NCBI RefSeq assembly: GCF_021390175.1
Contig: NZ_CP090004.1
Coordinates: forward strand, 3,959,001-4,023,000
Direction: 5' to 3'
Source: Flagellimonas sp. HMM57
GTDB lineage: Bacteria; Bacteroidota; Bacteroidia; Flavobacteriales; Flavobacteriaceae
DNA: 64,000 bases
Below, one piece after another: positions 43,246 through 63,329 of this stretch (position 1 is the first letter of the stretch; the number at the start of each line of letters is the position of its first letter). The position numbers were made by a program, and so were the translations under genes. Below the pieces are notes generated by a model. That model worked only from the letters and a program-made list of their open reading frames with translations, searched no databases and was not told where the DNA came from.

Positions 43246-44616
43246 ATGTTAAATGTAGATACTATAATTGCTTTAGCGACTCCATCGGGTATCGGTGCCA
43301 TTGCGGTAATACGGGTTTCTGGACCTGATTCCATTACGATTTCGGATACCGTTTTTAAATCCATAAAAGGAAAAAAACTAGTTCAGCAAAAAAGCCACAC
43401 CATTCATTTAGGTCACATCGTAGAAAACGATAAAATTCTGGACAAAGTTTTAGTATCCATATTTAAGACGCCCCACTCCTACACCGGTGAAAATATTGTG
43501 GAGATTTCTTGTCACGGTTCACCCTATATTCAGCAACAAGTGATTCAACTATTTTTGCGAAAAGGGTGCAGGACAGCTACTGCAGGCGAGTTCACCTTAC
43601 GAGCTTTTTTAAATGGAAAAATGGACCTTAGCCAAGCGGAGGCGGTTGCAGACCTTATTGCAAGCGATAGTGCCGCTGCACACGAAGTCGCCATACAACA
43701 GATGCGAGGTGGCTTCAGCAATGAAATACAACAACTACGTGAAGAGCTATTAAACTTTGCCTCATTGATCGAGCTGGAGCTGGATTTTTCACAAGAAGAT
43801 GTAGAATTCGCCGACCGCGGTGAATTCAATACCTTATTGAATCGTATAAGTGAGGTCTTAAAAAAGTTGATAGATTCCTTTGCTTTAGGCAATGTCGTAA
43901 AAAATGGTATCCCAGTAGCAATAGTCGGAGAGCCCAATGTTGGTAAATCAACACTCTTAAATACGCTTTTGAACGAAGAGCGAGCAATCGTAAGCGATAT
44001 AGCGGGTACCACCCGCGATACTGTTGAGGACCAAATTAGTGTGGGTGGTATCAATTTTAGGTTCATTGATACCGCGGGCATCAGAAAGACAAAAGATGTA
44101 GTTGAGCAAATAGGAATTCAACGAACCTTTGAGAAAATAGAAAAGGCCAGATTGATCATCTTTATTTTTGATAGTCCGGATTTTGATAGGTCTGAATTGA
44201 AAAGTATACAGAAGATGTACCCCACTAAAGAAATACTGCCAATCTGTAATAAAGTCGATGCCCTGAACGATCAACAAGTTGATATACTCAAACAAGAAGT
44301 TCCCGGTGTGATGTTTTTGTCGGCCAAACATGGAACCGGAATATTAAGTTTGGAAGAAAAACTATTATCACTCGTCGATTCAGGTGCTTTGAGCGGTGAC
44401 CAGACCATTGTCACCAACAACAGGCATTACGATGCCCTGATCAAAGCATTGGAGGAAATTCAAAAAGTAAAAGAAGGAATGGAAATTGGGTTGGCCAGCG
44501 ATTTAATGGCCATAGACATTAGACAGGCCCTTTTTCATTTGGGTGAAATTACAGGAAGCGTGACTACAGATGATTTACTGGGAAATATTTTTTCTAATTT
44601 TTGTATCGGGAAGTAA
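43246..44616 (+). CDS. mnmE: tRNA uridine-5-carboxymethylaminomethyl modification GTPase
   Basis: This 456-residue enzyme, with MnmG, modifies the wobble uridine of several tRNAs. The N-terminal folate-binding domain has DTIIALATPSGIGAIAVIRVSGPDS and HTIHLGHI. The GTPase domain has G1 IVGEPNVGKSTLLNTLLNEERAIVSDIAGTTRDTVEDQI with G3 DTAGIR and G4 NKVD. The C-terminus ends LLGNIFSNFCIGK with the conserved FCxGK motif. It is the last core gene before the natural-product locus. Confidence 0.96.
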   Translation: MLNVDTIIALATPSGIGAIAVIRVSGPDSITISDTVFKSIKGKKLVQQKSHTIHLGHIVENDKILDKVLVSIFKTPHSYTGENIVEISCHGSPYIQQQVIQLFLRKGCRTATAGEFTLRAFLNGKMDLSQAEAVADLIASDSAAAHEVAIQQMRGGFSNEIQQLREELLNFASLIELELDFSQEDVEFADRGEFNTLLNRISEVLKKLIDSFALGNVVKNGIPVAIVGEPNVGKSTLLNTLLNEERAIVSDIAGTTRDTVEDQISVGGINFRFIDTAGIRKTKDVVEQIGIQRTFEKIEKARLIIFIFDSPDFDRSELKSIQKMYPTKEILPICNKVDALNDQQVDILKQEVPGVMFLSAKHGTGILSLEEKLLSLVDSGALSGDQTIVTNNRHYDALIKALEEIQKVKEGMEIGLASDLMAIDIRQALFHLGEITGSVTTDDLLGNIFSNFCIGK

Positions 44617-44783: not shown

Positions 44784-45665
44784 ATGGTTTATGAGGAAAG
44801 TAAATCAATGAAAAATAAAATTCGAAGTAAAATAGTAAATTTCTTATCTTCTACTGTTGGTGCATTCCTTGTATATATTGCACCCTCTAAAGCTAAAGAA
44901 TTAGCTTCAAAAGGGATGACTTTGGTAATGGATAAAGATTTAACCATTTTGGAAAAGTTAATGCGTAGGGCAATCCTTCGAAAACTAGAAAAAAATGGAA
45001 ATTTTGACACTTTGGCGGATTTTCATCAAAACTTTTGGGTGGAAAAAGGAGACAACTTCTTTACGGCCAATGACAGTCAATTGGAAAATGTATTTATACC
45101 GAGTTGCGATTTTATTTTTGATCTCCTGAAAAATCAACTGACTAAGGAAACTGAAAAATTCACGACAATTGTGGAAATTGGAACAGGAAATGGTACCGTT
45201 TTGAATCATTTATCCCATAAGTTTTCACAAATGGATAAGCTTATCGGAATCGATTTAAACAAAACACAAACCCTTAAAAACAAAGAAAAGTACAAAAATA
45301 ACCCAAGGCTTGAGTTTGTTGCTGGTGATGGTTTTGATTGGCTTGAAAAAAATGGAAAAAGCCATACAATTTTCTTGACCTTTATGGGAGTTTTAGAATA
45401 TTTTACAGAGAATAGACTACAGGCATTTTTTGAAGCGGCAAATAACCTTGGTAAGATTATATTTATTGCGATTGAACCAAATGACTCTAATCACGATTTA
45501 GAATTAAATCCTAGATCCAAAGTTTATGGACCCGAAAGTTCCTTTTCGCACAACTATCCCAATTTACTAAAAAAAGCCGGTTTTAACCTTTGGCATTATT
45601 CAAAAAAGACCTTTGAAGGAGACACAAATTATATTGTATTCGTAGGAGCAAAAAACTGGACTTAG
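44784..45665 (+). CDS. SAM-dependent methyltransferase at the head of the NRPS-PKS locus
   Basis: This protein of up to 293 residues (an alternative ATG at 44808 gives 285) has a class I methyltransferase domain. Motif I is TTIVEIGTGNGTVLNHLS, followed by KLIGIDLNKTQTLKNKEKY and RLEFVAGDGFDWL (motif II-like acidic). The N-terminal 90 residues form a helical lead (FLSSTVGAFLVYIAPSKAKELASKGM). The substrate is unknown. It sits just after mnmE and before the JmjC-like oxygenase. A fragment homologous to its C-terminus (YGPESSFSHNY here) is found after that oxygenase gene, so this gene family was once duplicated in the locus. Confidence 0.85.
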   Translation: MVYEESKSMKNKIRSKIVNFLSSTVGAFLVYIAPSKAKELASKGMTLVMDKDLTILEKLMRRAILRKLEKNGNFDTLADFHQNFWVEKGDNFFTANDSQLENVFIPSCDFIFDLLKNQLTKETEKFTTIVEIGTGNGTVLNHLSHKFSQMDKLIGIDLNKTQTLKNKEKYKNNPRLEFVAGDGFDWLEKNGKSHTIFLTFMGVLEYFTENRLQAFFEAANNLGKIIFIAIEPNDSNHDLELNPRSKVYGPESSFSHNYPNLLKKAGFNLWHYSKKTFEGDTNYIVFVGAKNWT

Positions 45666-45788
45666 CAACTGGACAAAGCCATTTTTGTTTTACTCAATTG
45701 TTAAAACAGTAACAAGAAATGCTGGTAGAAATCAAATATTATATCAAAAGTCTTTTAAAAAAACTGAATCCTTATATCCAAAACAAAA

Positions 45789-46652
45789 ATGGAATCAACT
45801 ATTAAAATAAACAAGATTGACAGATGTAAAGGACTTTCAAAAAAGGAATTTTACGATAAATATGTAAAAAAGTCATTGCCTGTAGTAGTTACTGATAAAA
45901 GTGAATGGACATCGTTGGAAAAATTTACACCGGAATACTTCAAATCCAATTATGATCATGTTACCAATACTATTGATGGCAAAACTTACAAACTATCGCA
46001 AATAATTGATTTGTGTATGGCTTCAACTCCCGAAAATAAAGCTCCCTACCCCAATATATATGATATAACACAACATTTCCCAGAATATGTTAAGGTCATA
46101 CCTGATTTGCAATATGGAAAATCCAACAGGATTTTTAGTCGAATACTACCAAGATTAATTGCAAGTCGTAACAATCAACAAGAACTATTTTTTGGGGGAA
46201 AAGGGTGTTCATTTCCAAAGCTACATATTGATTTAAATTGGGTGCATACTCAAATCACCCAGATAATTGGAGAGAAAGAGTTTATTTTATATCCTCCTAG
46301 CGATACCCCTTTCTTATATCCCGACAAAACACTGCCCAATTACAGTAATGTCAATATCATGAACCCTGACTATGATGCACATCCATTGTTCAAAAAAGCT
46401 AAAGCCTTAAGAATAAGACTTAATCCTGGCGAAACCATTTTTATCCCATCGGGCTGGTGGCATACAACATATATCCACGATTTTAATCTTACATACGCGG
46501 TTGATCATGTGAATTCATTTAATTGGAATACCTTCATGGATCAGAATTACCAATCCGCAAAAAAACATTATCCAAACATCGCCTGGACACTCAAAGTATA
46601 TAAGCTAATTATGGGTAAAGTATTCAATTTTAAAGAAGCGATATTTAATTGA
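45789..46652 (+). CDS. JmjC/cupin-8-like Fe(II)/2-oxoglutarate oxygenase
   Basis: This 287-residue protein matches cupin-like domain 8 (FIH/JmjC type). N-terminal KKEFYDKYVKKSLPVVVTDKSEW is the usual lead-in. The iron site reads KLHIDLNWVHTQITQIIGEKEFILYPPSD with His146 and Asp148 (HxD), and the distal His225 is in FIPSGWWHTTYIHDFNLTYAV. Lys in EKEFILYPP is the expected oxoglutarate contact. In other clusters such enzymes hydroxylate amino-acid side chains of peptides, free or carrier-bound. Here it probably acts on the NRPS-PKS substrate or product, by position only. Confidence 0.85.
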   Translation: MESTIKINKIDRCKGLSKKEFYDKYVKKSLPVVVTDKSEWTSLEKFTPEYFKSNYDHVTNTIDGKTYKLSQIIDLCMASTPENKAPYPNIYDITQHFPEYVKVIPDLQYGKSNRIFSRILPRLIASRNNQQELFFGGKGCSFPKLHIDLNWVHTQITQIIGEKEFILYPPSDTPFLYPDKTLPNYSNVNIMNPDYDAHPLFKKAKALRIRLNPGETIFIPSGWWHTTYIHDFNLTYAVDHVNSFNWNTFMDQNYQSAKKHYPNIAWTLKVYKLIMGKVFNFKEAIFN

Positions 46653-46659
46653 TTCATAA

Positions 46660-46923
46660 TCAAAATCGTATGGATTTGAACGATCCTTCTCCCATAATTA
46701 TGTAAAGCTATTTGAAGAATCCAACTTCAAGATTAGCACTATTCCAAAAAATGATCGATGGGAACAATGGCATCATCAGTTTTATTGGGCCAATAAAATG
46801 ATTTTAAAAGAGATATTCTTTGAATATTTTTCGTACAACTATAGTTCTGGTCCATTCAACGATTATCTTAATAGTTCGTTAAAAATCATTATTAAATTGC
46901 TATTAATCAGAATACTTTTTTAG
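46660..46923 (+). pseudogene. C-terminal remnant of a second methyltransferase gene
   Basis: An 87-codon frame bounded by an in-frame TAA (46657-46659) and TAG (46921-46923) begins SKSYGFERSFSHNYVKLFEE. This aligns with SKVYGPESSFSHNYPNLLKK near the C-terminus of the methyltransferase at 44784-45665. After that the two diverge; the remnant continues RWEQWHHQFYWANKMILKE and ends in a hydrophobic stretch. There is no start codon and no methyltransferase core, so it is a truncated relic. The nucleotide sequences differ at many third positions, so the duplication is old. Confidence 0.7.
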
Positions 46924-47042
46924 AGTACGTTCCCTCACTAATATTGATTTATTTTTTGAAACCAGAATTATAGTCTTATGGAACCACATGACTAATCATT
47001 CTGTTTGTATACCAACTTAGACCATTTTGATCGTTTATTAGT
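46924..47042. other. Leader region of the NRPS-PKS genes
   Basis: These 119 AT-rich bases lie between the methyltransferase relic and the NRPS-PKS start codon. I find no TAnnTTTG element with a correctly spaced TTG and no hairpin terminator. The promoter of the assembly-line genes may lie further upstream, perhaps before the methyltransferase at 44784. Confidence 0.4.
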
Positions 47043-50000
47043 ATGAAAAAAAAGCAATTGACCTCAAACGACAAAAAACTACTTGACGCGTTTAATGATA
47101 CGAGTTTTGATTTTCCCAATAATCTTACAATTGTAGACCTATTTCAACAGCAAGTTGATAAAACACCTGAAAACATCGCCGTTGTTTTTAAAGATTCGGT
47201 ATTGACATACCTACAATTAAATGAACTCTCAAATAAGTTTGCAAATTTTTTAGGGCAAAATTACGACCTAAAAAAGGGAGATTTTATAGGACTGATGCTA
47301 GAACGAAGCGAATATCTAATAATCAGTATTCTAGGGATTCTTAAAACAGGATGTGCCTACGTACCCATTGATATTGAAGCTCCCCTAAAAAGAAAAGAAT
47401 ATGTTCAAAATGATAGTTCTTGTAAAATTACTGTTGATGAAGTCCTACTTGGGAAATTTAAGACACGTGAAGACCACTATTCCAGTAAAGTGGATGTCTC
47501 CCCTGTAAAAACAAAAGATTTAGCTTACATAATATATACTTCTGGAACCACGGGTAACCCCAAAGGAGTAATGGTAGAGCATGCTTCTGTAGTAAATCTG
47601 ATTTTTTCTTTGACACAGTTCTTTCAAATTGATTCATCAGACAAAACACTTCTTTTTTCAAACTATTTTTTTGACGCTTCCATAGAACAAATGTTTCTCG
47701 CTTTGCTAAATGGGGGCGAATTAGTCGTAATCGATAAAAAAGATATTAAAGATCATATTTTACCTTCTATAATAGAAAAATATGCAATTACGCATCTTAA
47801 TGCCACACCTAGCTATTTGGATACATTGCCTGATCTTTCCCATTTGAAATCACTGAAGCTAATCGTCACTGGAGGGGAAGTTTGTTCCTTGAAGTTAGCA
47901 AATAGGATGGCTGGTTATTGTAATTTGTATAATACCTATGGGCCTACAGAAAATACGGTTACCTCAACAGTGTTAAAATACTCTGAAAGACTTCTAAATG
48001 AAAAATCATTCCCCATAGGTAAGCCTATCCATAATACCAAAGCCTACGTGCTTTCAGAAAACCTAGATATATTGCCAGTTGGGGAGGTAGGAGAATTGTG
48101 CTTGGCAGGAAGTGGGTTGGCTAGAGGGTATTTGAACAATGAAAAATTGACAGCTGAAAAATTTATAGATAATCCTTTTGAGCCGGGAAATAAAATGTAC
48201 AGAACCGGTGATTTTGCAAAATGGAAAAAAGATGGAACGCTAGAATTTTTAGGGCGAAAGGATGATCAGGTAAAAATTAGAGGGTATAGAATAGAGTTAG
48301 GTGAGATAGAAACAGTACTAAACGCAATAAAAGGCATTAAAAAGGCAATAGTACTTGCCAGCAATCATTTTGGAACAGAGCCTTCTTTAATATCATATTT
48401 ACAGGCTACTGAAGATAAGTTATCTACCCAATCAATTAAAGAAGAAATTTCCAAGACGCTGCCAGTTTACATGATACCTACTATTTTTATGTGGATTGAG
48501 GAGTTTCCCATCAATAGAAATGGAAAAGTGGACAAGACCAAATTACCCGTTCCAGCGTATCAAAGACCAGATTCAGCACCTATCTATCGTAAACCGCGCA
48601 CCAAAACTGAAAAACAGATTGCACAGATTTGGAGCGAAACATTATCTATACCAAAGATAGGGCTTGATGATAATTTTTTTGAACTGGGCGGCACTTCATT
48701 ACTTACACAAAAACTAGCTACGGTACTGACAGAAAATTTGGATACTAAAGTACCTGTTACTAAAATTTATCAAAACCCTACCATATCACAATTGGTTGAA
48801 TTCTTGGAAAAGGATAAAAACAAAATACCAATGGATACTAAAAGAAGGAGAAGACCTTCTTCCAGAGAAGTTGCCATAATTGGTATGGCAGGAAGGTTTC
48901 CAGGTGCAAATACAATCGACGAACTTTGGAAAGTACTTGAACATGGAAAAGAGACCATCTCGTTCTTTTCAAAACAAGAACTGGATAAGAGTATTCCAGA
49001 GTCATTACGCAATGACCCTCTTTATGTGGGTGCTAGGGGGATTGTTCCATCTGCTAAAGAGTTTGATGCCAGATTTTTTGGAATGAGTCCGAAATTGGCA
49101 GAAGCAATGGATCCACAACAACGCTTATTTTTAGAAATTGCATGGGAGGCTTTAGAACAATCTGGTTATTTGCCCAAACATTATGATGGTACAATTGGAG
49201 TTTATGCAGGCGCAGGCGGAAATACATACTACACAAACAATGTACTCCCAAACCAAGAATTACTGAATCAAGTAGGCAGTTTTCAAGCTAATACGGTAAA
49301 TGATAAAGATTATATAGCAACTAGAACCGCTTATCACTTAGATTTAAAAGGACCGGCCGTTAATGTCTATTCTGCATGCTCTACATCTTTACTTGCAATT
49401 GCAGAAGCCGTAGAGGCAATACGAAGTGGTAGGTGCGAAATAGCATTGGCAGGTGCAGCGAGTGTAACCGCACCAATGTACAGTGGCCATCTATATCAGG
49501 AAGGATCTATGTTAAGTTCTGACGGTCATTGTCGTCCTTTTGATATTGATGCTAAAGGAACTGTATTTAGCGATGGTGCAGGTGTCGTTTTGCTTAAAGA
49601 TTTGGCGGATGCAAAAAAAGATGGTGATATTATACATGGTATCATCAAGGGTATAGGGGTCAATAACGATGGTGGAAATAAAGGTAGTTTTACTGCCCCA
49701 AGCATACAAGGACAAGCAGGTGCTATTAGCAGTGCTCTCGCAGATGCTCGCATTACCCCAGATAAGATTAGCTACGTAGAAGCACACGGTACGGCAACAC
49801 CATTAGGAGATCCCATAGAAATAGAAGGCCTACATATGGTTTTTGGCAAAAAAGCAGAGAACAAGCATTGTGCAATCGGTTCAATTAAGAGTAATATGGG
49901 ACACTTGACTTCGGCAGCGGGTGTTGCAGGATTAATAAAGACCTTATTGGCCATGAAGCATAATAAAATACCTCCTTCAATTGGTTTCGAAGAACCTAAC

Positions 50001-53000
50001 CCGGCCATCGATTTCAAAAACAGTCCCTTTTATGTGAACCAAAAATTGAATGATTGGAAATCAAACGGCACAAAAAAAGCAGGAATCAGTTCTTTCGGTG
50101 TAGGTGGCACAAACGTGCATATCATTGTAGAGGAGCATGCCGATCAAAAACAAGTATCTAACGGTAATGAAAGACCAATACAGTTTTTACCCTGGTCAGC
50201 TAAAACGAAAGAAAGTTTATTGGCCTATCAAAAAGCATTAGGTACCCATTTAAAAGAAATGTCCAAACCTACGCTGTCGGATATAGCTTTCTCTTTATCT
50301 ACAACTAGAGATCTTTTCAGCCACAGGAGCTTTGTCTTGTCAAATGATAAAAATGATTTGGCAAATATGCTTCTGCTCAAAGAAGAAAACGATATCAAAT
50401 CCAATGTCGTAAAGGTAATGCCCAGCGAATTAGTATTTCTTTTTCCGGGTCAAGGTTCCCAATATCCACAAATGGGGCGAGCACTTTATGAAAACGAACC
50501 TGTATTTAGGGAAGCAGTAACCCGTTGTGCAAAGTTGCTACAAAATGTATTAGAACTGGACATAAGAGAAGTTATTTATCCTGAGCTTGATACTCTGGAA
50601 ACAAAAAATAGACTAAAGGATACAAAATATACCCAACCTGCTTTATTTGTTGTTGAATATGCTCTGGCACAACTATGGGTTAGTTGGGGCGTAAAACCGA
50701 CGGTACTCTGCGGTCATAGCATTGGTGAGTTTGTTGCGGCCCATCTGGCCGGTGTTTTTAGCTTAGAAGACGCGCTAAGATTGATAACAATACGTGGAAA
50801 ATTAATAAGCGGGTTACCCGGAGGAAGCATGCTTTCCGTTCGCATGGACGCTGAAAACATCACCAAATTATTGCCAGAAACACTTTCAATAGCTGCAATA
50901 AACTCGGATCAGTTATGTGTTGTTTCAGGCCCTGATAAGATTATTGAACAATTTGCTTCACAATTAAAAGAAAAAGGAATTGCATGCATGATTTTAGCAA
51001 CGAGTCATGCATTTCACTCCAATATGATGAATCCAATTTTAGATTCCTTTAAAATTGAGGTTGAAAAGGTGTCTTTAAATATCCCGCGTTTACCTATGGT
51101 ATCCACAGTTAGCGGTACATGGTTGAGCGATGCGGAAGCAACCGATCCAGAATATTGGACCAATCATTTAAGGAAATCTGTTCGCTTCTCAGATGCTCTG
51201 GAAACCATGTTGGCTACAGAAGATACGATTCTCTTGGAGGTTGGACCTGGTCGTGCGCTGACAACGTTATCAAATCAAAAAAAGGGGTTAAAGTCATTGG
51301 TTTCACTAAGTAGCTTACCAACTCCCAAAGCAGGATATAGTGCCTACAATTCAATATTAATAGCATTGGGAAATTTATGGCTAAACGGAATAGAACCCAA
51401 TTGGAGGGAATTCTACAAAGACCAGACTAGGCAAAAAGTACTATTGCCCTCATACGTTTTTGATAAAAAACCTTGCTGGATCGAACCTTTAGCCATGGAA
51501 AGCAATAAAAATACCCTTGTTCAAGATCCAAATACATCTAAGCCCGAAATCAATCAAAATTCTACTGTTATGAGAGAGGAAATTATTCTAGAAAAAATTT
51601 CAGACATAATAACAAATACGTCAGGTATTGAATTGGAAACTTCCGAATACAATCTGAACTTTCTTGAACTAGGATTGGATTCTTTAGTGTTAACACAAAT
51701 GGCACTGACTTGTAAAAATGAGTTCAAACTTCCAATAACTTTTCGGCAATTAAACGATAGTTTTAATTCCCCTACTCTATTGGCCAAATATCTGGATGAA
51801 AATCTTCCAAAAGATATGTACGCTCACGAAATTGATAACAACCAAAATACAGCCCCAATACAAAACATAGATTCCAGCAAAGAAAATCTTTCGTTTGCCA
51901 CTAACGGGAATCAAGACTCCGCATTGAGCCTTATAGCACAGCAGATCCAACTTCTTGGAAAACAAATAGAGCTGATGCAGGGAAATGAAAGCAAAGAAAG
52001 TTATATACAAAAACCCAAGTCTGAAGTCCCCATACCCAAGATACCCACTGCAAACGATTTATCTGAAGACGAGAAAAGAGATCTTAAAAAACCTTTTGGG
52101 GCATCTCCGCGGATCGAAAGAAACTCGACCGGTCTAAATCCCTCACAGGCTGATTTTTTAAAGGATTTAATTAGTAATTACAATAAAAAAACGGCTAAAA
52201 GTAAATCGAATACACAACATAACCGCAGGCATATGGCCGACCCTAGGGTTGTATCAGGTTTTAAACCTTTGACCAAGGAACTTGTTTATCCAATTATAAT
52301 CGAAAAATCGTTGGGCAATAAGTTATGGGATTTAGATGGCAATGAATATCTTGATACTGTAAACGGTTTTGGCTCTTGTTTTTTTGGTTATCAACCAGAT
52401 TTTATAACAGAAGTTCTTCATAAACAAATAGATACTGGTTTTGAGGTAGGCCCGCAGCACCCATTGGCAGGTGAGGTTTGTGAACTTTTGTGTGAATTTA
52501 CTGGTCACGAACGGGCAGGTCTTTGCAATACCGGTTCTGAGGCAGTTTTAGGCGCAATGCGTATTGCCAGAACAGTTACCGGTCGCTCTTTAATCGTTGC
52601 TTTCAAAGGATCCTATCATGGTATAAACGATGAGGCATTGGTACGAGGCTCTAAAAAACTAAAGACTTTCCCAGCAGCTGCAGGTGTATTACCAAGTGCA
52701 GTTCAAAATGTTTTAATATTGGATTATGGTACGCAAAAGAGCTTGGATATCATTAAAAATAGAGCTAATGAGCTAGCGGCTGTTTTGGTCGAACCCGTAC
52801 AAAGTAGAAGACCAGAGTTTCAACCTGTGGAATTCTTAAAAGAGGTCCGTGAGATAACCAAAGCTTCTGAAACTGTCTTAATTTTCGACGAAATCATTAC
52901 TGGTTTTAGGATGCACCCTGGAGGCGCCCAGGCATTATTTGATATAAAAGCGGATGTTGCCACCTACGGAAAAGTAATCGGAGGAGGTATTTCCATAGGT

Positions 53001-53642
53001 GCAATTTTAGGGGACAAAAAGTATATGGACGCCTTAGATGGTGGATTTTGGAACTATGGTGATGATTCTTTTCCAGAAGTAGGTGTCACCTATTTTGCTG
53101 GTACTTTTGTACGGCACCCTTTAGCTTTGGCATCGGCTAAAGCTTCTTTGACGTTTATGAAACAACAAGGTGGTAATTTACAAAACCGCTTGAATGAAAT
53201 GACCAAAAATTTTGCTTTGGATATGAACAGTTCGTTCAAAACCAAGGGCCTTCCGCTTGAAATAACATATTTTGGCTCTTTATGGCGTCTAACATTTTTA
53301 GAAGAAATGCCTTATTCAGAATTACTATTTGTTCTGCTAAGAAAAAATGGCATCCATATTTTAGATGGATTCTCTTGTTTTGTTACCAATGCGTATACCA
53401 TTGATGATATGCAAAAAATCAAGAAAGAGTTATTATCAGCTTTAGAAGAATTGGCAAACGTAAATTTTTTACCTAATCACGTTAAAAATTCTTCTATCGA
53501 ATCCAATGAAGTACTTACAGCAAAAAAAATAAACACGCCACCTCTTGAAGGAGCAAAACTCGGGATTGACGAAGATGGGAACCCGGCTTGGTATGTTGTG
53601 GACAAAACAAATCAAGGAGAATATCTTAAAATTGATTTGTAA
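47043..53642 (+). CDS. Hybrid NRPS-PKS: A-PCP-KS-AT-ACP-aminotransferase
   Basis: 2199 residues in one frame. Adenylation domain about 20-500 (YIIYTSGTTGNPKG; FDASIEQMF at 210-218; NTYGPTE; NRNGKVDK). Carrier protein with Ser552 (ELGGTSL). Ketosynthase about 606-1030 with Cys779 (YSACSTS), His915 (EAHGTATPLGDP) and His954 (NMGHLTSAAG), all intact. Acyltransferase about 1130-1440 with Ser1226 (GHSIGEF) and HAFHS at 1322-1326, the malonyl-CoA type. ACP with Ser1547 (LGLDSL). Class III aminotransferase about 1720-2150 of the glutamate-semialdehyde type, PLP Lys1977 (TYGKVIGGG). No KR, DH, ER or TE. It should load an amino acid, extend it once and transaminate the beta-ketone, like the in-line aminotransferases of mycosubtilin and microcystin synthases. 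Pocket residues read D-A-E-N-V-G-T-V-T-K by eye, perhaps a basic amino acid. Confidence 0.93.
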   Translation: MKKKQLTSNDKKLLDAFNDTSFDFPNNLTIVDLFQQQVDKTPENIAVVFKDSVLTYLQLNELSNKFANFLGQNYDLKKGDFIGLMLERSEYLIISILGILKTGCAYVPIDIEAPLKRKEYVQNDSSCKITVDEVLLGKFKTREDHYSSKVDVSPVKTKDLAYIIYTSGTTGNPKGVMVEHASVVNLIFSLTQFFQIDSSDKTLLFSNYFFDASIEQMFLALLNGGELVVIDKKDIKDHILPSIIEKYAITHLNATPSYLDTLPDLSHLKSLKLIVTGGEVCSLKLANRMAGYCNLYNTYGPTENTVTSTVLKYSERLLNEKSFPIGKPIHNTKAYVLSENLDILPVGEVGELCLAGSGLARGYLNNEKLTAEKFIDNPFEPGNKMYRTGDFAKWKKDGTLEFLGRKDDQVKIRGYRIELGEIETVLNAIKGIKKAIVLASNHFGTEPSLISYLQATEDKLSTQSIKEEISKTLPVYMIPTIFMWIEEFPINRNGKVDKTKLPVPAYQRPDSAPIYRKPRTKTEKQIAQIWSETLSIPKIGLDDNFFELGGTSLLTQKLATVLTENLDTKVPVTKIYQNPTISQLVEFLEKDKNKIPMDTKRRRRPSSREVAIIGMAGRFPGANTIDELWKVLEHGKETISFFSKQELDKSIPESLRNDPLYVGARGIVPSAKEFDARFFGMSPKLAEAMDPQQRLFLEIAWEALEQSGYLPKHYDGTIGVYAGAGGNTYYTNNVLPNQELLNQVGSFQANTVNDKDYIATRTAYHLDLKGPAVNVYSACSTSLLAIAEAVEAIRSGRCEIALAGAASVTAPMYSGHLYQEGSMLSSDGHCRPFDIDAKGTVFSDGAGVVLLKDLADAKKDGDIIHGIIKGIGVNNDGGNKGSFTAPSIQGQAGAISSALADARITPDKISYVEAHGTATPLGDPIEIEGLHMVFGKKAENKHCAIGSIKSNMGHLTSAAGVAGLIKTLLAMKHNKIPPSIGFEEPNPAIDFKNSPFYVNQKLNDWKSNGTKKAGISSFGVGGTNVHIIVEEHADQKQVSNGNERPIQFLPWSAKTKESLLAYQKALGTHLKEMSKPTLSDIAFSLSTTRDLFSHRSFVLSNDKNDLANMLLLKEENDIKSNVVKVMPSELVFLFPGQGSQYPQMGRALYENEPVFREAVTRCAKLLQNVLELDIREVIYPELDTLETKNRLKDTKYTQPALFVVEYALAQLWVSWGVKPTVLCGHSIGEFVAAHLAGVFSLEDALRLITIRGKLISGLPGGSMLSVRMDAENITKLLPETLSIAAINSDQLCVVSGPDKIIEQFASQLKEKGIACMILATSHAFHSNMMNPILDSFKIEVEKVSLNIPRLPMVSTVSGTWLSDAEATDPEYWTNHLRKSVRFSDALETMLATEDTILLEVGPGRALTTLSNQKKGLKSLVSLSSLPTPKAGYSAYNSILIALGNLWLNGIEPNWREFYKDQTRQKVLLPSYVFDKKPCWIEPLAMESNKNTLVQDPNTSKPEINQNSTVMREEIILEKISDIITNTSGIELETSEYNLNFLELGLDSLVLTQMALTCKNEFKLPITFRQLNDSFNSPTLLAKYLDENLPKDMYAHEIDNNQNTAPIQNIDSSKENLSFATNGNQDSALSLIAQQIQLLGKQIELMQGNESKESYIQKPKSEVPIPKIPTANDLSEDEKRDLKKPFGASPRIERNSTGLNPSQADFLKDLISNYNKKTAKSKSNTQHNRRHMADPRVVSGFKPLTKELVYPIIIEKSLGNKLWDLDGNEYLDTVNGFGSCFFGYQPDFITEVLHKQIDTGFEVGPQHPLAGEVCELLCEFTGHERAGLCNTGSEAVLGAMRIARTVTGRSLIVAFKGSYHGINDEALVRGSKKLKTFPAAAGVLPSAVQNVLILDYGTQKSLDIIKNRANELAAVLVEPVQSRRPEFQPVEFLKEVREITKASETVLIFDEIITGFRMHPGGAQALFDIKADVATYGKVIGGGISIGAILGDKKYMDALDGGFWNYGDDSFPEVGVTYFAGTFVRHPLALASAKASLTFMKQQGGNLQNRLNEMTKNFALDMNSSFKTKGLPLEITYFGSLWRLTFLEEMPYSELLFVLLRKNGIHILDGFSCFVTNAYTIDDMQKIKKELLSALEELANVNFLPNHVKNSSIESNEVLTAKKINTPPLEGAKLGIDEDGNPAWYVVDKTNQGEYLKIDL

Positions 53643-53690
53643 ATATGTTCCTCAAATTAAAATGCATCGTCTTGTAATTATTGAACGTTA

Positions 53691-56600
53691 ATGAATTCTA
53701 CCTTAAAACAAAAAGCCTCCACCCCGTTCAATCCATTCGCTGGACCTACATTGGAGCGTGTAATACCCATTACAGCATCTCAATCAGAAATATGGACCGC
53801 ATGTAAATTTGGCGGTGAAGCAGCTAACAAAGCCTATAACGATTCTATTTCCCTTTTCTTAAAAGGCAATCTTCACCGTAACTTCTTGGAAGATGGTATA
53901 AAAGAAATAATAGAAAGGCATGAATCACTAAGAGCGACCTTTAGTGCAAATGGGCTTTTTATGAATGTATTCGAAGAAAATCCCATAAAAATACATTATC
54001 AAGATATTACGGCATTCAATATTGAAGACCAGCATAAAGCTATTGAAAAATACTTATCGGAAGATGCCAGTTTTGTTTTCGATTTGGTGAAAGGCCCTTT
54101 GTTAAGAGTGGGATTAATCAAGATTAATGATTTTGAACATCATTTGGTCATTACAGCCCATCACATTATATGTGATGGTTGGTCCACAGGAATAATTTTG
54201 GAAGAACTTGGCACACTTTATTCTAGCTATGTCAACAACAAGATTGCCATACTTCCCAAACAAGAAAGCTTTTCGGATTATGCCGATGACCAACAAGAAT
54301 TCATCCACAGTGCCACTTACAAAGAAATTGAGAACTTTTGGTTGAGGCAATATGCAGACTCTATACCGCAGGTGACATTACCTACAGATTTTCCAAGACC
54401 TGAACTAAGAACCTTTAAAAGTAACCGTAAAGATTTTTATTTAGATAGCGAACTATTGGCTTCTTTAAAAAAAGTAGGCGTTCAATCTGGGTGCAGCCTA
54501 GTGACTACTTTAATTTCCGTTTTTGAAGTTTTTCTATATCAACAAACCGGTCAAAATGATCTTGTTTTGGGCCTCCCCTCTTCTAACCAGTCTTTTACGG
54601 GAAAAAATCAATTAATAGGTCATTGTGTAAACCTGTTACCATTACGTACCAGACTTTCCACAAAAACTACATTTACCGATTACCTAAGACAACGTAAATC
54701 TTACCTCTTCGATGCTTACGAACATCAATCCCTTAGTTTTGGACAGCTATTACAAAAACTGCCCATTCCAAGAGATGCATCTCGTGTTCCATTGGTACCG
54801 ATCATGTTCAATTTTGATACTGAGATGACAAGCCAGGTAGCATTTGCCGACTTGACCTACGAGCTAAAAACCAACCCAAGGGAATTTGAGGCCTTTGAGC
54901 TTTTTTTGAATGCAGGCGGCACTGAGGACAATTTACTTTTTGAATGGTCCTATAACTCATCTCTTTTTAAACAATCGACAATAACACAGATGATGAATTC
55001 ATTTGTGGAAATATTGAAAAGAGTTGTAGATAACCCAAACAGCAGTATCGGTAATCTTGTTAGGGCAAATGATACGCTTTATCAAAAATTAAACGCTACA
55101 CAAACTTCCTATTCACCATCACCTCTCAGTGAATTGATTTTAAGACAAGCACAAAAAACACCAAAGAGACTTGCTGTTGAATATGGCGAAAAACAAATTT
55201 TTTATGACGATTTCCAAGATCAGGTCAATGCTTTGACACATCAACTTATCGAACAGGGGGTTTGTCCTGGGGATTTTGTGGGCGTTTCATTGTATAGATC
55301 GGAAAAGCTCCCTATTCTATTACTCGCGATACTTCAATCTGGCGCCGCTTACCTTCCTTTAGACCCTAATTTTCCATCTAAACGATTGGGCTATATGCTA
55401 GAGGACTCTAATGCACGTTTTTTAGTCACCACTAAAGAAATATTGACCAAAGTAAAGGGAAGTTCCAAAACAATACTGTTGGAAGATTTGTTTTCGAGCG
55501 TAAAAAAATATCCGACAACAGCTCCAAATATCAAAATAGCCAATACTTCATTGGCTTATTTGCTGTATACCTCGGGTTCCACAGGACAGCCCAAAGGGGT
55601 ACCCATTACCCATAAAAACTTGGTCAATTTTCTTTCTGGTATGGCCCTTGAACCTGGCATAAAGGAAACGGACAGGTTATTATCCATTACCACTATATCT
55701 TTTGACATAGCTGGTCTGGAACTTTTCTTGCCATTACTAACAGGTGCCACTTTGGTGTTGACCGATGACGAAACCACTAAAGACCCTCGAATGCTTATGG
55801 AAGTCCTCAGGGATAAGAATATTACCATGCTACAGGCAACACCTACAACTTGGCAAATGCTATTGGATTCTGGTTGGGAAGACCCTTTGCCGATCAAAGC
55901 ATTATCTGGAGGTGAAGCCTTGCCACTTAGTTTAGCTAAAAAAATAGCCGAGCGGACAACTGAGCTATGGAATATGTATGGACCTACGGAGACAACCATT
56001 TGGTCCTCGGTACAAAAAATAAGCGTTCATGATGAATCGATAACTATAGGACATCCTATAGCGAACACACAACTTTACGTTTTAAATGAGAACGGTTTTC
56101 CGGTCAACCCAGGGATTATAGGGGAAATAGCCATTGGCGGGGATGGTGTTGCCAATGGCTATTGGAAAAGGGAAGCATTGACCGCCGAGAAGTTTTTGTT
56201 TAATCCTGTCCTTAATAAAACCCTTTATAGTACAGGAGATTTGGGCAAACTTCTTCCAAATGGTGAAATTCAATGCTTGGGACGCAAAGACCAACAGGTT
56301 AAAATACGTGGCCATCGAATTGAACTAGAAGAAATTGAGGAAGCGTTAGGTACTATTGCGGAAATACACAATGCTGTTGTTGCAGTAAAAAACAATACGC
56401 TAATAGCACATGTTGTTCTTAACAGAAACGAAGTTGCTCAACAATACAACTACAATGATTGGGAAAAAGAATTAGCTGAACGGCTTCCCGACTATATGGT
56501 GCCTAGACAGTTTAACATTCTATCGGAGTTTCCAACTACACTTAATGGAAAAATTGACCGTAATACATTATCGATAAATTTTCGGCCACAAGAAAAAAAT

Positions 56601-57674
56601 ACGCATACGATTTCCATCACAACAAAGAATGAAGAAATAGTAGCCGACGTTTGGAAGGAGTGCCTTAAGCTTTCCAGCGTGAACCGTAACGATAACTTTT
56701 TCGAATTAGGGGGCCATTCTATGGTCGCAATTAAAGTTATGACCTTGTTAGAGAAAAAGACAGACAAAAGATTACCTCTTTCCTCCCTTTTGCAATACCC
56801 CACTATTAAGCAACTGGCATCATTGTTAGATAAAGAAAATCCTTCATCTAACTGGAAATCTTTGGTCCCCATGAAACCTGAGGGTCATAAACCACCATTG
56901 TTTATTGTGCATGGAGCCAATTACAATGTCCTGGTTTTTGAAAAGTTAGCGCAATGCCTTGACGAAGACCAGCCAGTTTATGGCTTACAGGCAAAGGGTA
57001 TTGACGGAACCGATGAGCCTGACGATACAGTGGAAACAATGGCTGCTAATTTCATTGCGGAAATGAAAACGGTCTATCCTGAAGGTCCTTACTCTATTGC
57101 AGGTTTTTCTTTTGGTGGTATTATTGCTTTTGAAATGTACAAACAACTAAAAGCTGAAGAAATAAAGGTAAAGATATTGGCATTATTTGATAGCTACGTT
57201 TATCCAAACTACTATTATTCAAATATTTCTAAGAAAAAGCGATTATACAAATATTACCAACTAAGACAGTTGGTCTTTGTCTCCTTAAACATGTTCAGCA
57301 GCAAGAAAAATTTCAACAGAAGGGTAAATCTATTGAAACTGGCGCTCAATGGATTGTATTTGAGATTTAAATACGGACAAGAAAAACAGGTCAAGATGCA
57401 ATTCAATCGTTCAAGCCTTATCGATAAGTTCCATAGCGATGCTTTCTTACGGTATACTATAGAACCACAAGATATTAAGGTTGATTTATTTAGAGCATCG
57501 GAAAATGTATATTTCGCACATGATTTTAAGTTTCTTGGCTGGACTGGTCTTGCAACGAAAGGAATTAGAAAACATAAAATACCAGGTAACCACAATGATA
57601 TGTTCTTACCTCCCAATGTCGAAAAATTTGCAGAGATTTTACAGCATACACTAGACAATCATGATTCAGAATAA
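53691..57674 (+). CDS. NRPS termination module: C-A-PCP-TE, predicted glycine-specific
   Basis: 1327 residues, 48 bases behind the hybrid synthase. Condensation domain about 20-450 with an intact HHIICDG (His157, His158, Asp162). Adenylation domain about 470-980 (YLLYTSGSTGQPKG, FDIAGLELF from 671, NMYGPTE, LNGKIDR). Carrier protein with Ser1010 (ELGGHSM). Type I thioesterase about 1070-1320 with Ser1140 (AGFSFGG), Asp1167 (LFDSY) and His1301 (GNHNDM), a full triad. Aligning by eye to GrsA PheA, the pocket residues are D-I-L-Q-L-G-M-I-W-K, one change from the usual glycine code. It should accept the beta-aminoacyl-ACP from the upstream protein, join glycine and release the product by hydrolysis or cyclisation. 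No epimerase or second module follows. Confidence 0.94.
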   Translation: MNSTLKQKASTPFNPFAGPTLERVIPITASQSEIWTACKFGGEAANKAYNDSISLFLKGNLHRNFLEDGIKEIIERHESLRATFSANGLFMNVFEENPIKIHYQDITAFNIEDQHKAIEKYLSEDASFVFDLVKGPLLRVGLIKINDFEHHLVITAHHIICDGWSTGIILEELGTLYSSYVNNKIAILPKQESFSDYADDQQEFIHSATYKEIENFWLRQYADSIPQVTLPTDFPRPELRTFKSNRKDFYLDSELLASLKKVGVQSGCSLVTTLISVFEVFLYQQTGQNDLVLGLPSSNQSFTGKNQLIGHCVNLLPLRTRLSTKTTFTDYLRQRKSYLFDAYEHQSLSFGQLLQKLPIPRDASRVPLVPIMFNFDTEMTSQVAFADLTYELKTNPREFEAFELFLNAGGTEDNLLFEWSYNSSLFKQSTITQMMNSFVEILKRVVDNPNSSIGNLVRANDTLYQKLNATQTSYSPSPLSELILRQAQKTPKRLAVEYGEKQIFYDDFQDQVNALTHQLIEQGVCPGDFVGVSLYRSEKLPILLLAILQSGAAYLPLDPNFPSKRLGYMLEDSNARFLVTTKEILTKVKGSSKTILLEDLFSSVKKYPTTAPNIKIANTSLAYLLYTSGSTGQPKGVPITHKNLVNFLSGMALEPGIKETDRLLSITTISFDIAGLELFLPLLTGATLVLTDDETTKDPRMLMEVLRDKNITMLQATPTTWQMLLDSGWEDPLPIKALSGGEALPLSLAKKIAERTTELWNMYGPTETTIWSSVQKISVHDESITIGHPIANTQLYVLNENGFPVNPGIIGEIAIGGDGVANGYWKREALTAEKFLFNPVLNKTLYSTGDLGKLLPNGEIQCLGRKDQQVKIRGHRIELEEIEEALGTIAEIHNAVVAVKNNTLIAHVVLNRNEVAQQYNYNDWEKELAERLPDYMVPRQFNILSEFPTTLNGKIDRNTLSINFRPQEKNTHTISITTKNEEIVADVWKECLKLSSVNRNDNFFELGGHSMVAIKVMTLLEKKTDKRLPLSSLLQYPTIKQLASLLDKENPSSNWKSLVPMKPEGHKPPLFIVHGANYNVLVFEKLAQCLDEDQPVYGLQAKGIDGTDEPDDTVETMAANFIAEMKTVYPEGPYSIAGFSFGGIIAFEMYKQLKAEEIKVKILALFDSYVYPNYYYSNISKKKRLYKYYQLRQLVFVSLNMFSSKKNFNRRVNLLKLALNGLYLRFKYGQEKQVKMQFNRSSLIDKFHSDAFLRYTIEPQDIKVDLFRASENVYFAHDFKFLGWTGLATKGIRKHKIPGNHNDMFLPPNVEKFAEILQHTLDNHDSE

Positions 57675-58428
57675 GCAATCTCAGATAGTATGTTCCGAAT
57701 CAAAAATTATCTTTTACGATTATTCCCAGTTGAATTGGAATAGTCGTAAACTAAAATTCTTCAAGATAGATATCTCTGACTTTGAACATGAAGTTCATCG
57801 CCTGACCCATTTTCTTGAGCCTCATGAATTATTACGTTCTCAACGGTATCGTTTTAAAAAAGATTGCAATAGATTTATAATAAGCAGGACCATACTCAAA
57901 ATCTTATTGGCAAAACAAACAGGCACATCTGTCGAAAATATTAGCTTAAAAAAGGATGAAAGGAAGAAACCCTATTTACCCTTGAATCCATCGGTTTTTT
58001 TTAATCTTTCCCATTCTGGAAACTGTATTTTAATAGCTATAAGTGAAGTGCCAGTAGGTATTGATGTTGAAAAAATTGATGAAAGCTTTGATTTTACACC
58101 CCTTCTTTCCCAAATATTCAATACCACGGAAATTAAAAAACTCAATAACGCTGATCAGCCTCTAAGAACATTTTACACTTTTTGGACACGTAAGGAGGCT
58201 ATTGTCAAAGCAACCGGAAAAGGAATTACTGACAATTTCATTGCAATACCCTCAATAAATGGGCTTCACCAAATACAATCATGTTTAATTGGAACAACTA
58301 CAAAATTACAAGTAAACAGCTTTAATATTGATAATGAATATATTGGGGCTATTGCATTGACCGACGAGACTCCGACCTCAAAGAATATTCCATGTTACAA
58401 ATTATATTCCAATCCAATACACCATTAA
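57661..58428 (+). CDS. 4'-phosphopantetheinyl transferase (Sfp type)
   Basis: This 255-residue enzyme converts apo carrier proteins to holo form. Motifs are RYRFKKDCNRFIISRTILKILLA, KKPYLPLNPSVFFNLSHSGN, VGIDVEKIDE (Mg-binding Asp and Glu) and FWTRKEAIVKATGKGI, the last being the classic (W/F)xxKE(A/S)xxK signature. The start codon lies inside the last 14 bases of the NRPS gene, so translation is coupled and it is dedicated to the three carrier domains of this locus. It is the last gene before a nested inverted repeat. Confidence 0.95.
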   Translation: MIQNKQSQIVCSESKIIFYDYSQLNWNSRKLKFFKIDISDFEHEVHRLTHFLEPHELLRSQRYRFKKDCNRFIISRTILKILLAKQTGTSVENISLKKDERKKPYLPLNPSVFFNLSHSGNCILIAISEVPVGIDVEKIDESFDFTPLLSQIFNTTEIKKLNNADQPLRTFYTFWTRKEAIVKATGKGITDNFIAIPSINGLHQIQSCLIGTTTKLQVNSFNIDNEYIGAIALTDETPTSKNIPCYKLYSNPIHH

Positions 58429-58500
58429 AAATGATGTAACGTAAGCTTTTACAAAAAGTTAGAATTCTAATTGGTAAACCAAAAAAGCTTCATTTTTAAT
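58424..58500. repeat. Nested inverted repeat behind the NRPS-PKS locus
   Basis: ATTAAAAATGA (58424-58434, which contains the PPTase stop) is complementary to TCATTTTTAAT (58490-58500). Inside it AAGCTTTT (58443-58450) pairs with AAAAGCTT (58483-58490), and at the centre lies the 12-base palindrome TTAGAATTCTAA (58459-58470). There is no clean GC stem with U-tract, so it may be a weak terminator, a transcript-end stabiliser or a remnant of a mobile element end. Confidence 0.6.
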
Positions 58501-58543: not shown

Positions 58544-59410
58544 ATGGTACCCAAAAGATTTTATGTTATACTTAAAACATTAATTTTTGTTTTCCTGCTC
58601 GCCTTTTACAGTAATGAAGGTTATGGTCAAAAAAACGACTCTGCTGATTCTTCTAAAACAACTTGGCAGTTGTTCAAGTATGATATAGGCAATGTCTTAG
58701 GAAGTATCGGATACTCCTACACCAGACCTTTCCATTGGAAAGGCAAACAATGGGGAACATTCGGAGCTGTTACCGCTGGTACTGGTTTGCTCTACCTTTT
58801 TGACGAGCAGATATCTGAGTTTTCAATAAACCAAAAACAAGGAGTTCCCCCTTTTATCCGTAATTACGGTACAAGAATTGGAAAACCTCAGTATAATTAT
58901 ATGCTTACCGGCGGAGTATATTTATCTGGTTTATTCGTAAAAAATGAAAAATTGAGACGTACCGGTGTCTTATTATTGGCTTCGGCTTCCTCTGCGGGAT
59001 TTTTGCAGCAAGTTACAAAGTCCCTAATTGGAAGGGCACGTCCGGTTAGTGATAAAGGCAAAGATACCTTCGACCCATTCAACTCAAACAGAAATTTTCA
59101 TTCTTTTCCTTCTGGACACGCCATCCTTGCGTTTACCAATGCCTACGCCATAGGAAAGCAATTTAAAAATCCTTGGGTAAAAACAGGGATTTATATTGTA
59201 GGGCTTGTTCCCGGAATATCCAGATTATGGGAAGGACAGCACTGGTTTACCGATGTTGCCCTAGGTGTCGCCATAAGTATCTTCACAGTAGAGTCTATTG
59301 ACAAGTACCTTGACAAAAAATATGACCAAAAATATAATCACCATGATAAGAAAGTAAGCTGGAATATGCACTTTGGACCGGGCCAGATAGGCTTCTCTGC
59401 TCACTTTTAA
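58544..59410 (+). CDS. Exported PAP2-superfamily phosphatase
   Basis: This 288-residue protein has an N-terminal hydrophobic export signal (FYVILKTLIFVFLLAFYSNEGYGQ) and the three PAP2 phosphatase motifs: KSLIGRARP, FHSFPSGHAILAF and SRLWEGQHWFTDVALG. These form the acid phosphatase active site with a phospho-histidine intermediate. Substrates in the family are lipid phosphates or undecaprenyl diphosphate. It follows the biosynthetic locus but shares a probable own promoter, so membership in the cluster is doubtful. Confidence 0.9.
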   Translation: MVPKRFYVILKTLIFVFLLAFYSNEGYGQKNDSADSSKTTWQLFKYDIGNVLGSIGYSYTRPFHWKGKQWGTFGAVTAGTGLLYLFDEQISEFSINQKQGVPPFIRNYGTRIGKPQYNYMLTGGVYLSGLFVKNEKLRRTGVLLLASASSAGFLQQVTKSLIGRARPVSDKGKDTFDPFNSNRNFHSFPSGHAILAFTNAYAIGKQFKNPWVKTGIYIVGLVPGISRLWEGQHWFTDVALGVAISIFTVESIDKYLDKKYDQKYNHHDKKVSWNMHFGPGQIGFSAHF

Positions 59411-59479
59411 TTATATTGGCCAGAAGCTATTTACCAATATTTTAGGCTTATTGACCATTGTCACACCTACACATTATCT

Positions 59480-60049
59480 ATGTTAGAAGAATTGATAAAA
59501 GTCGATAAAGAAATATTTCTATACCTAAATGGATTGGGGACACCTTTATGGGACGGTTTTTGGATGTATCTATCGCGTACCATAAGTCTTATTACTATAC
59601 CAATTTGTCTCTTTGTATTTTTTTATTCCTATCAGATTTTTGGACCAAAAAAAACTATGCTCGTATTGTTCACAGTAGCCTTACTGATTATCTGTACTGA
59701 ACAACTATCCATTCTTTTTAAAAATGGGATAACAAGATTAAGACCCTGCCATGATGATGAAATCATGAATATCATGAGACATGTTAAAGAATATTGTGGT
59801 GGTAGGTTTGGTTACTTTTCCGCTCACGCAGCAAATTCTTCCGCATTTGCAAGTTTCTTTGGTATCCTTTTCGTTAAAAGGAACAGGTTTCTACTTATTT
59901 TGTTAATGCTATGGGCATTGCTGGTAGGCTATAGCCGTATATACATTGGTGTCCATTTTCCTTTGGATGTTTTAACCGGAGTTATTATAGGTATTTTCTT
60001 AGGATGGTTGTTTTCGACTATATTTTTCACCTTTACGAATAGTAGATAA
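59480..60049 (+). CDS. PAP2-family undecaprenyl-diphosphatase-like membrane protein
   Basis: This 189-residue inner-membrane protein has about five helices. PAP2 motifs are [28 protein letters not shown] (the usual PSGH appears as FSAH, common in this subgroup) and [22 protein letters not shown]. It begins [21 protein letters not shown], typical for bacterial lipid A or undecaprenyl-diphosphate phosphatases. It may recycle the lipid carrier for the polysaccharide genes that follow. Confidence 0.9.
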
Positions 60050-60175
60050 CTGTTTTTTTTGAATTGTACGGATTGCTTATTAAATATCTTACCAAACAGT
60101 TGAAAACTAAGTGTAAGAAAAATAATGCTTTCAAAAATTCTTATAGTATATCTTTGTGCCCATCAAATAGGAGGT

Positions 60176-60919
60176 ATGTTCAGTTTTTTTCAAAAAAAAA
60201 TCTTCTTGATTGATCATCTTCATGGATTGGTCGATATACATAATCATATTCTGCCAGGTATCGACGATGGTGCAAAGACCATAGATGAATCGGTTGACTT
60301 AATCAAAGGATTTTCTGAATTCGGGATTAAAAACTTTGTTTTTACTCCTCATATTATGAACAACTATTATCCCAACACTCCGACTACCATAAAAAATTCT
60401 TTCGCCAAACTGCAAAAGGAACTTAACATTCAAAATATTGATAACATATACTTAGATTATTCAGCGGAGCATATGATTGACGATAATTTTGAAGCCATTC
60501 TTAATGGTGATAAGGTTATGCCATTAAAAAAGAGTTATTTACTCATTGAAATGTCATATTTACAGCCTTCCCTGAACTTTGATCAAGCAATTTCAAAAAT
60601 AGCGAGTCGACGCTACTTTCCTATTTTAGCACATCCTGAAAGATATTTGTTCTTTCATCAGAAATATAAAAAGTATGCAAGTTTAAAATCTCAAGGAATT
60701 CTGTTTCAACTAAATCTACTCTCTCTTTGCAGTGATTTTTATGGAAAAGAAGTAAGCAAAATAGCAAGCAAATTGTTGGATGATAATCTCATCGATTATG
60801 TAGCATCAGATGTTCACAACATGAAACAATTGAATACCATTAAAGATGCAACAATATCAAGTAAAACGTTGGACCAAATTCTTCCAATAGTAGAAAATAC
60901 GATAGATACTTTTTTTTAG
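60176..60919 (+). CDS. Tyrosine-protein phosphatase of the CpsB/YwqE type
   Basis: The ATG at 60176 is chosen over 60125 because the family begins with a short MFSFF-K-K lead before the metal motif. The 247-residue PHP-domain enzyme has LVDIHNHILPGIDDGAKTIDES (metal-binding His, His and Asp), FTPHIMNNYYPNT, LIEMSYLQPSL, ILAHPERYLF and VASDVHNMK. It dephosphorylates tyrosine autokinases of polysaccharide export. It converges with the Wzc-like kinase, their stops separated by four bases, so the regulator pair is tail to tail. Confidence 0.92.
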   Translation: MFSFFQKKIFLIDHLHGLVDIHNHILPGIDDGAKTIDESVDLIKGFSEFGIKNFVFTPHIMNNYYPNTPTTIKNSFAKLQKELNIQNIDNIYLDYSAEHMIDDNFEAILNGDKVMPLKKSYLLIEMSYLQPSLNFDQAISKIASRRYFPILAHPERYLFFHQKYKKYASLKSQGILFQLNLLSLCSDFYGKEVSKIASKLLDDNLIDYVASDVHNMKQLNTIKDATISSKTLDQILPIVENTIDTFF

Positions 60920-60923
60920 GGGA

Positions 60924-63314: not shown

Positions 63315-63329
63315 AATAGCACCTATTAG

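Follow-up and report, generated by a model that had tools for sequence, protein, structure and literature searches.

The window analysed here is a stretch of 64,000 nucleotides from the genome of Flagellimonas sp. HMM57, which consists of one contig of 4.16 Mb. Between mnmE (43246-44616) and a PAP2 gene (58544) it carries five genes on the forward strand:

44784..45665, + strand: SAM-dependent methyltransferase, probable tailoring enzyme (Pfam Methyltransf_25, 38 bits; model pLDDT 90)
45789..46652, + strand: Cupin_8/JmjC Fe(II)/2-oxoglutarate oxygenase, possible tailoring hydroxylase (Pfam Cupin_8, 103 bits)
47043..53642, + strand: A-PCP-KS-AT-ACP-AMT megasynthase, 2199 aa (Pfam and NCBIfam domains; A1 code DAENVGTVTK)
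53691..57674, + strand: C-A-PCP-TE synthetase, 1327 aa (Pfam and NCBIfam domains; A2 code DILQLGMIWK)
57661..58428, + strand: Sfp-type 4'-phosphopantetheinyl transferase, PPTase (Pfam ACPS and AASDHPPT_N)

The interval of the biosynthetic line also includes the methyltransferase (44784-45665) and the Cupin_8/JmjC protein (45789-46652). According to the Pfam and NCBIfam domains, the two synthetase genes are indeed the adjacent A-PCP-KS-AT-ACP-AMT and C-A-PCP-TE genes of the initial annotation, with a gap of 48 bases. The overlap of the PPTase gene with the second synthetase gene, likewise described there, amounts to 14 bases. Against the NCBIfam model 4PPT_HetI the PPTase reaches 96 bits, below the cut-off of 370. 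The A domain of the first synthetase is of the amino-acid type, scoring 411 bits with TIGR01733, above the cut-off, and the line holds one further module. No match to the KR, DH or ER models of Pfam was found in the window line (for KR at E 0.001), in agreement with the proposed lack of a ketoreductase. The count of two carrier steps has to be corrected, as the line contains three carrier domains.

The catalytic residues, also claimed to be intact, are so both in the window and in the alignment of relatives. In the first synthetase we find the P-loop Lys174 and Lys495 of the A domain, Ser552 of the PCP, Cys779, His915 and His954 of the KS, Ser1226 and HAFH of the AT, Ser1547 of the ACP, and the PLP residues Asp1949 and Lys1977 of the AMT. 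We take the AT motif HAFH to be of the malonyl type. The second synthetase has the HHxxxDG motif of the C domain, Ser1010 of the PCP, and Ser1140, the presumed Asp1167 and His1301 of the TE. Across an alignment of 82 first proteins, the window among them, every one of the 11 checked sites is conserved in all rows or in 80-81 of them, the remainder being gaps in truncated rows; for the two AMT residues the figure is 81 of 82, and the remaining row is a gap in a truncated sequence. Each of seven sites is kept in 73/73 aligned second proteins (>1200 aa, window included), an alignment made without the two-module and fused partners and without the 3 of 76 second proteins that are shorter than 1200 aa. 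The window line is real, intact and probably functional.

A protein search, in which 7998 candidates were scored and 7574 kept, returned at least 119 relatives, among the matches listed, that cover at least 98% of the query at 56-75% identity. The relatives studied further are the best 80 of 181 from a scan with one genome per species, and these belong to Flavobacteriaceae, Sphingobacteriaceae, Spirosomataceae, Cytophagaceae and Chitinophagaceae, with two lacking a family name and one Corallococcus. The collected relatives (n=81) comprise 80 Bacteroidota and the Corallococcus. They are 43-75% identical over nearly the full length, a few truncated loci apart, and the cassette has a common ancestry along its full length. 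Within the window genus, 2 of 71 genomes, one of them that of the window, have the line at E 1e-200. A threshold of E 1e-250 was passed by 23 of 395 genomes of a family sample and by 30 of 392 of a phylum sample, several of these matches being partial or ending before the AMT. Matches above 2800 bits that extend to the last positions of the model number 15/395 and 13/392, respectively, as read from the tables, with the window in both; one of the 15 (G303), which lies at a contig end, starts at position 310. Because of these genus, family and phylum counts, we describe the line as widespread but patchy.

The domain order A-T-KS-AT-T-AMT is seen in 79 of 83 rows, one of which is the window again; of the other four, one has an extra C domain, one is fused and two are truncated. 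Gene neighbourhoods were compared in the 75 loci with adequate flank, i.e. the 83 less L001 (the window again) and L009, L024, L027, L035, L044, L058 and L089, which have short flanks. Among these 75, the first protein has a partner ending in C-A-PCP-TE in 72 and a PPTase homologue in 59 (window included), and a complete adjacent second synthetase is missing in three (L056, L057, L084). In the two Fibrella loci L056 and L057, the first synthetase stands without any second synthetase within about 10 kb. Six Maribacter loci have the C-A-T-TE gene upstream and without a glycine code, and their first protein is longer, at about 2460 aa; an extra Condensation domain is assigned by Pfam to these long first proteins, whereas the domain scan detects one in a single Maribacter locus. 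In a Chitinophagaceae MAG (L086:9989-20299) the whole line is fused into a single protein of 3437 aa with the order A-T-KS-AT-T-AMT-C-A-T-TE. At L013:16691-25120, two C-A-T-TE genes follow one first synthetase in succession, both with the code DILQLGMIWK.

The Aminotran_3 domain of the window line follows immediately on KS-AT-ACP, within one protein. Its nearest solved relative is the AMT of MycA (structures 6kfu and 6kfm, 385 bits) and not a stand-alone glutamate-1-semialdehyde aminomutase (GSAM), the best of which reaches 156 bits. The AMT of MycA is described as taking an amine from Gln and passing it to a beta-ketothioester bound to the ACP (PMC3870968). The line is an NRPS-PKS of two proteins and of the beta-aminating AMT type, with a predicted mechanism of known type. 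By analogy with MycA, the AMT would convert a 4-amino-3-oxoacyl into a 3,4-diamino acyl chain. Could the domain act instead as an in-line aminomutase, moving the amine from C4 to C3 via the vicinal diamine and giving a 3-amino-4-oxo acyl chain? The domain matches and PMC3870968 place the AMT in the GSA aminomutase-related Aminotran_3 group, and the substrate to be expected is an alpha-aminoketone, as in GSAM, because an amino-acid-type A domain precedes the AMT in all rows except those that a contig end truncates. On the other hand, the difference between 385 and 156 bits sets the window AMT far nearer to MycA, and 25 of 82 aligned rows combine an unchanged AMT with a proline-like A1 code, a class of our own making in which one member, L086, reads DAEFMAQV; the ring nitrogen of such a starter cannot migrate. 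We therefore regard an aminomutase as highly improbable and retain amination of the ketone.

The A-domain codes were taken from an alignment, in PheA numbering. The A1 code DAENVGTVTK is shared by the window and L009 only, while DAENVGAVTK occurs in five Winogradskyella loci (L010, L016, L045, L063, L067). In all five, a GNAT gene and a gene resembling the ornithine racemase Orr lie directly upstream of the first synthetase (L010:7982-9583); the racemase of L010 reaches 253 bits with the Orr model, below the cut-off of 480, and the other four copies were assigned by clustering. Among the 75 loci with adequate flank, no Orr-like racemase is found beside the line outside these five, and a search of the window's own genome, a single genome run without a positive control, gave none. 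Taken together, the window code and the Orr-like gene beside loci of nearly identical code suggest that the A1 substrate is a basic amino acid of the ornithine or lysine type. Glu at position 239, which also occurs in Lys, Orn and Dab codes, and the racemase linked to the five loci that deviate from the window code by a single residue both speak against a neutral polar residue (Thr, Gln or Asn), which would lead to a 3,4-diamino acyl glycine with a neutral side chain. For such a residue one may cite Asn at position 278, also present in the Thr code (DFWNIGMVHK), and the fact that L009 is the sole other locus with the exact window code. A signature code may mislead when it comes from an unstudied A domain of Bacteroidota; all the same, we consider a neutral starter unlikely and proceed with the basic one. 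For the second synthetase, we take DILQLGMIWK to be a glycine code; 40 of the 73 aligned second proteins begin with DILQ, and 14 of them have exactly DILQLGMIWK.

We infer the following route. The first A domain would load a basic amino acid of the ornithine/lysine type onto the PCP, and its amine would stay free because there is no C domain in front of A1. KS-AT-ACP would then add one malonyl unit to give a 4-amino-3-oxoacyl thioester, whose ketone the AMT would replace by an amine. The resulting 3,4-diamino acyl chain would be 3,4,7-triaminoheptanoyl if the starter is ornithine. The second synthetase would couple glycine and the TE release an acid or a ring, and the methyltransferase, perhaps also the oxygenase, would modify the product. 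As a whole, from basic starter to tailoring, this route is our preferred explanation, and we hold it with somewhat more confidence than doubt. Its core of malonyl extension, in-line beta-amination, glycine addition and TE release, as predicted in the initial annotation, fits everything tested at the level of sequence and is in part supported overall. We speculate that the beta-amine, the nucleophile common to all variants, could close a seven-membered ring with glycine; as a counterpoint, the gamma-amino thioester could lactamise by itself ahead of the glycine step.

The likeness to the MycA/iturin family lies in the in-line AMT after KS-AT-ACP and in the AMT match of 385 bits. MycA starts with a fatty acyl ligase and yields a beta-amino fatty acid, and the iturin/mycosubtilin line makes a seven-residue peptide. 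Neither a fatty acyl ligase starter nor a seven-residue line, the features of that type, is found in the window. Here the line stops after one further module, and its amino acid starter would lead to a 3,4-diamino acid. The AMT modules of microcystin McyE, puwainaphycin and zeamine likewise carry out beta-amination by KS-AT-ACP-AMT inside NRPS-PKS lines; these lines are longer and use starters other than an amino acid. Statine-type modules have the order A-PCP-KS-AT-KR-ACP and convert an amino acid and malonyl into a beta-substituted gamma-amino acid. Compared to them, the window line has no KR, and the AMT would give an amine in place of the hydroxyl, i.e. an aminostatine-like unit.

The same domain order was tabulated in 2013 for Pedobacter heparinus C6XWU5, as A-CP-KS-AT-CP-Aminotran_3 of the class Nrps-t1pks with the predicted product Nrp-Mal-Gly-Pk (PMC3870968, Table 2, entry 4). 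C6XWU5 is an uncharacterised table entry, likened to the window line by its domain order; in their best segment, 14 Pedobacter relatives share 47-51% identity with the window protein. The idea that the line is unlike known pathways is weakened: its architecture has been in print since that table (PMC3870968) and relatives exist in many Bacteroidota genera. Within the open-licence literature, the scope of our search (subscription papers lie outside it), we found no characterised product of such a line. The word aminotransferase does not occur in the main texts of PMC10734526, PMC12181424, PMC9248904 and PMC10609062. The first of these infers 88.6% of the BGCs studied in Flavobacteriaceae and their kin to be likely novel and reports PKS/NRPS hybrid groups that are exclusive to Winogradskyella, among others (PMC10734526).

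Counting the window, 31 of the 75 loci with sufficient flank have a methyltransferase homologue near the line, the named ones all being Flavobacteriaceae. The enzyme is found with A1 codes of each of the proline-like, DAE and DAMW types and, for this reason, probably acts on the common core. Its top rows in Foldseek are a mixture of METTL6, N-terminal methyltransferases of the NTMT1 type and C- and O-methyltransferases, with a TM to the query of about 0.4-0.56; a profile search gave a maximum of 28 bits, with entries resembling FPP methyltransferase and plantazolicin BamL. The Cupin_8 protein is JMJD5/JMJD6-like by sequence and fold, and its residues H146, D148 and H225 are invariant in 12/12 sequences. 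Homologues are present in 11 of the 75 loci (window included). Because the nearest copies, L020 (64%) and L029 (69%), accompany proline-like A1 codes, a basic side chain would be dispensable for the enzyme. The nearest relative of the window, L009, has its methyltransferase gene immediately next to the first synthetase, without an intervening Cupin_8 gene, and we therefore regard the oxygenase as the least certain part of the pathway. The best solved relative of the C domain of the second synthetase is that of TycC, with 208 bits.

The first A domain and the remainder of the first protein differ in their conservation. In many flavobacterial relatives the part from KS to AMT is 64-68% identical to the window, with an A1 core of only 37-43%. 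A1 cores of flavobacterial DAE-type loci are 54-77% identical to that of the window, those of Pedobacter DAE-type loci about 40%. The gap between A1 core and chassis fades near residue 400, and the later A-subdomain and the PCP track the chassis. On a chassis tree (FastTree, 79 rows, L024, L027 and L044 left out), a fast tree with some long branches, the A1 class changes at least 13 times when five coarse classes are used and the 10 rows classed as 'other' are set aside. If 'other' is counted as a sixth class, the minimum rises to 19 changes, compared to a mean of 47 after shuffling; the A1 class is therefore clustered on the tree but not of single origin. Class changes need not be exchanges, and the low A-core identities lead us to favour an exchange of A cores. 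Four further relatives have A-PCP-KS-AT-ACP without an AMT, beside C-A-PCP-TE:

L090:5140-14535, AMT-less relative
L091:4514-13782, AMT-less relative
L092:5149-14568, AMT-less relative
L093:4887-14301, AMT-less relative

Presence and absence of the AMT require three changes on a KS-AT tree, which is likewise a fast tree with some long branches. As these four were chosen for matches that end before the AMT, they give no frequency of its absence.

Downstream of the line, at 58544-63962, the window encodes two PAP2 phosphatases, CpsB/CapC, a Wzc-like kinase and a Poly_export protein. This succession of genes would suit a line that makes a precursor linked to surface polysaccharide or exported together with it; alternatively, the line may be silent. 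A Poly_export gene lies within 20 kb in 6 of 26 genomes, compared to 0.76 expected (Poisson P 1.4e-4), and in 5 of 25 with the window left out (P 1e-3). Of 27 genomes picked by the line alone, G303, with a gene truncated by a contig end, was set aside, which leaves the 26; the distances were read by hand. Because the 20 kb limit was chosen after the distances were known and the genomes are related, we treat this proximity as a lead only. The neighbour is missing in 20 of the 26 genomes, the place of the line may merely reflect a shared variable island, and the conserved catalytic residues of the relatives oppose decay. Surface attachment or a silent line is accordingly improbable, and a released dipeptide product is kept as the working model.

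If this model is right, one compact and recurrent cassette makes vicinal-diamine peptides, a class for which we found no product in print, and the relatives record a natural exchange of A cores ahead of a PKS/AMT chassis that stays constant. Variants of the line with another first residue or without the AMT would form a ready comparative set for structure assignment by LC-MS. The interest lies in the breadth and testability of the line and not in a new principle. More tentatively, and with more doubt than belief, we put forward a phylum-wide class of aminostatine-like (3,4-diamino acid)-glycine dipeptides in Bacteroidota, in which A1 cores are exchanged on a constant chassis and some lineages lack the AMT, so that related strains would make matched amine and ketone versions. 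The window member would be a triamino compound (ornithine or lysine), methylated and perhaps hydroxylated, with a biological role that is possibly peptidase-binding or surface-linked.

A gene for a small membrane protein lies near the line at L010:6242-7039 and in 20 further loci, i.e. 21/75, and is not found beside the line of the window. The L010 copy has a Rce1-like Pfam match just at the cut-off, and the protein could serve in immunity or tailoring.
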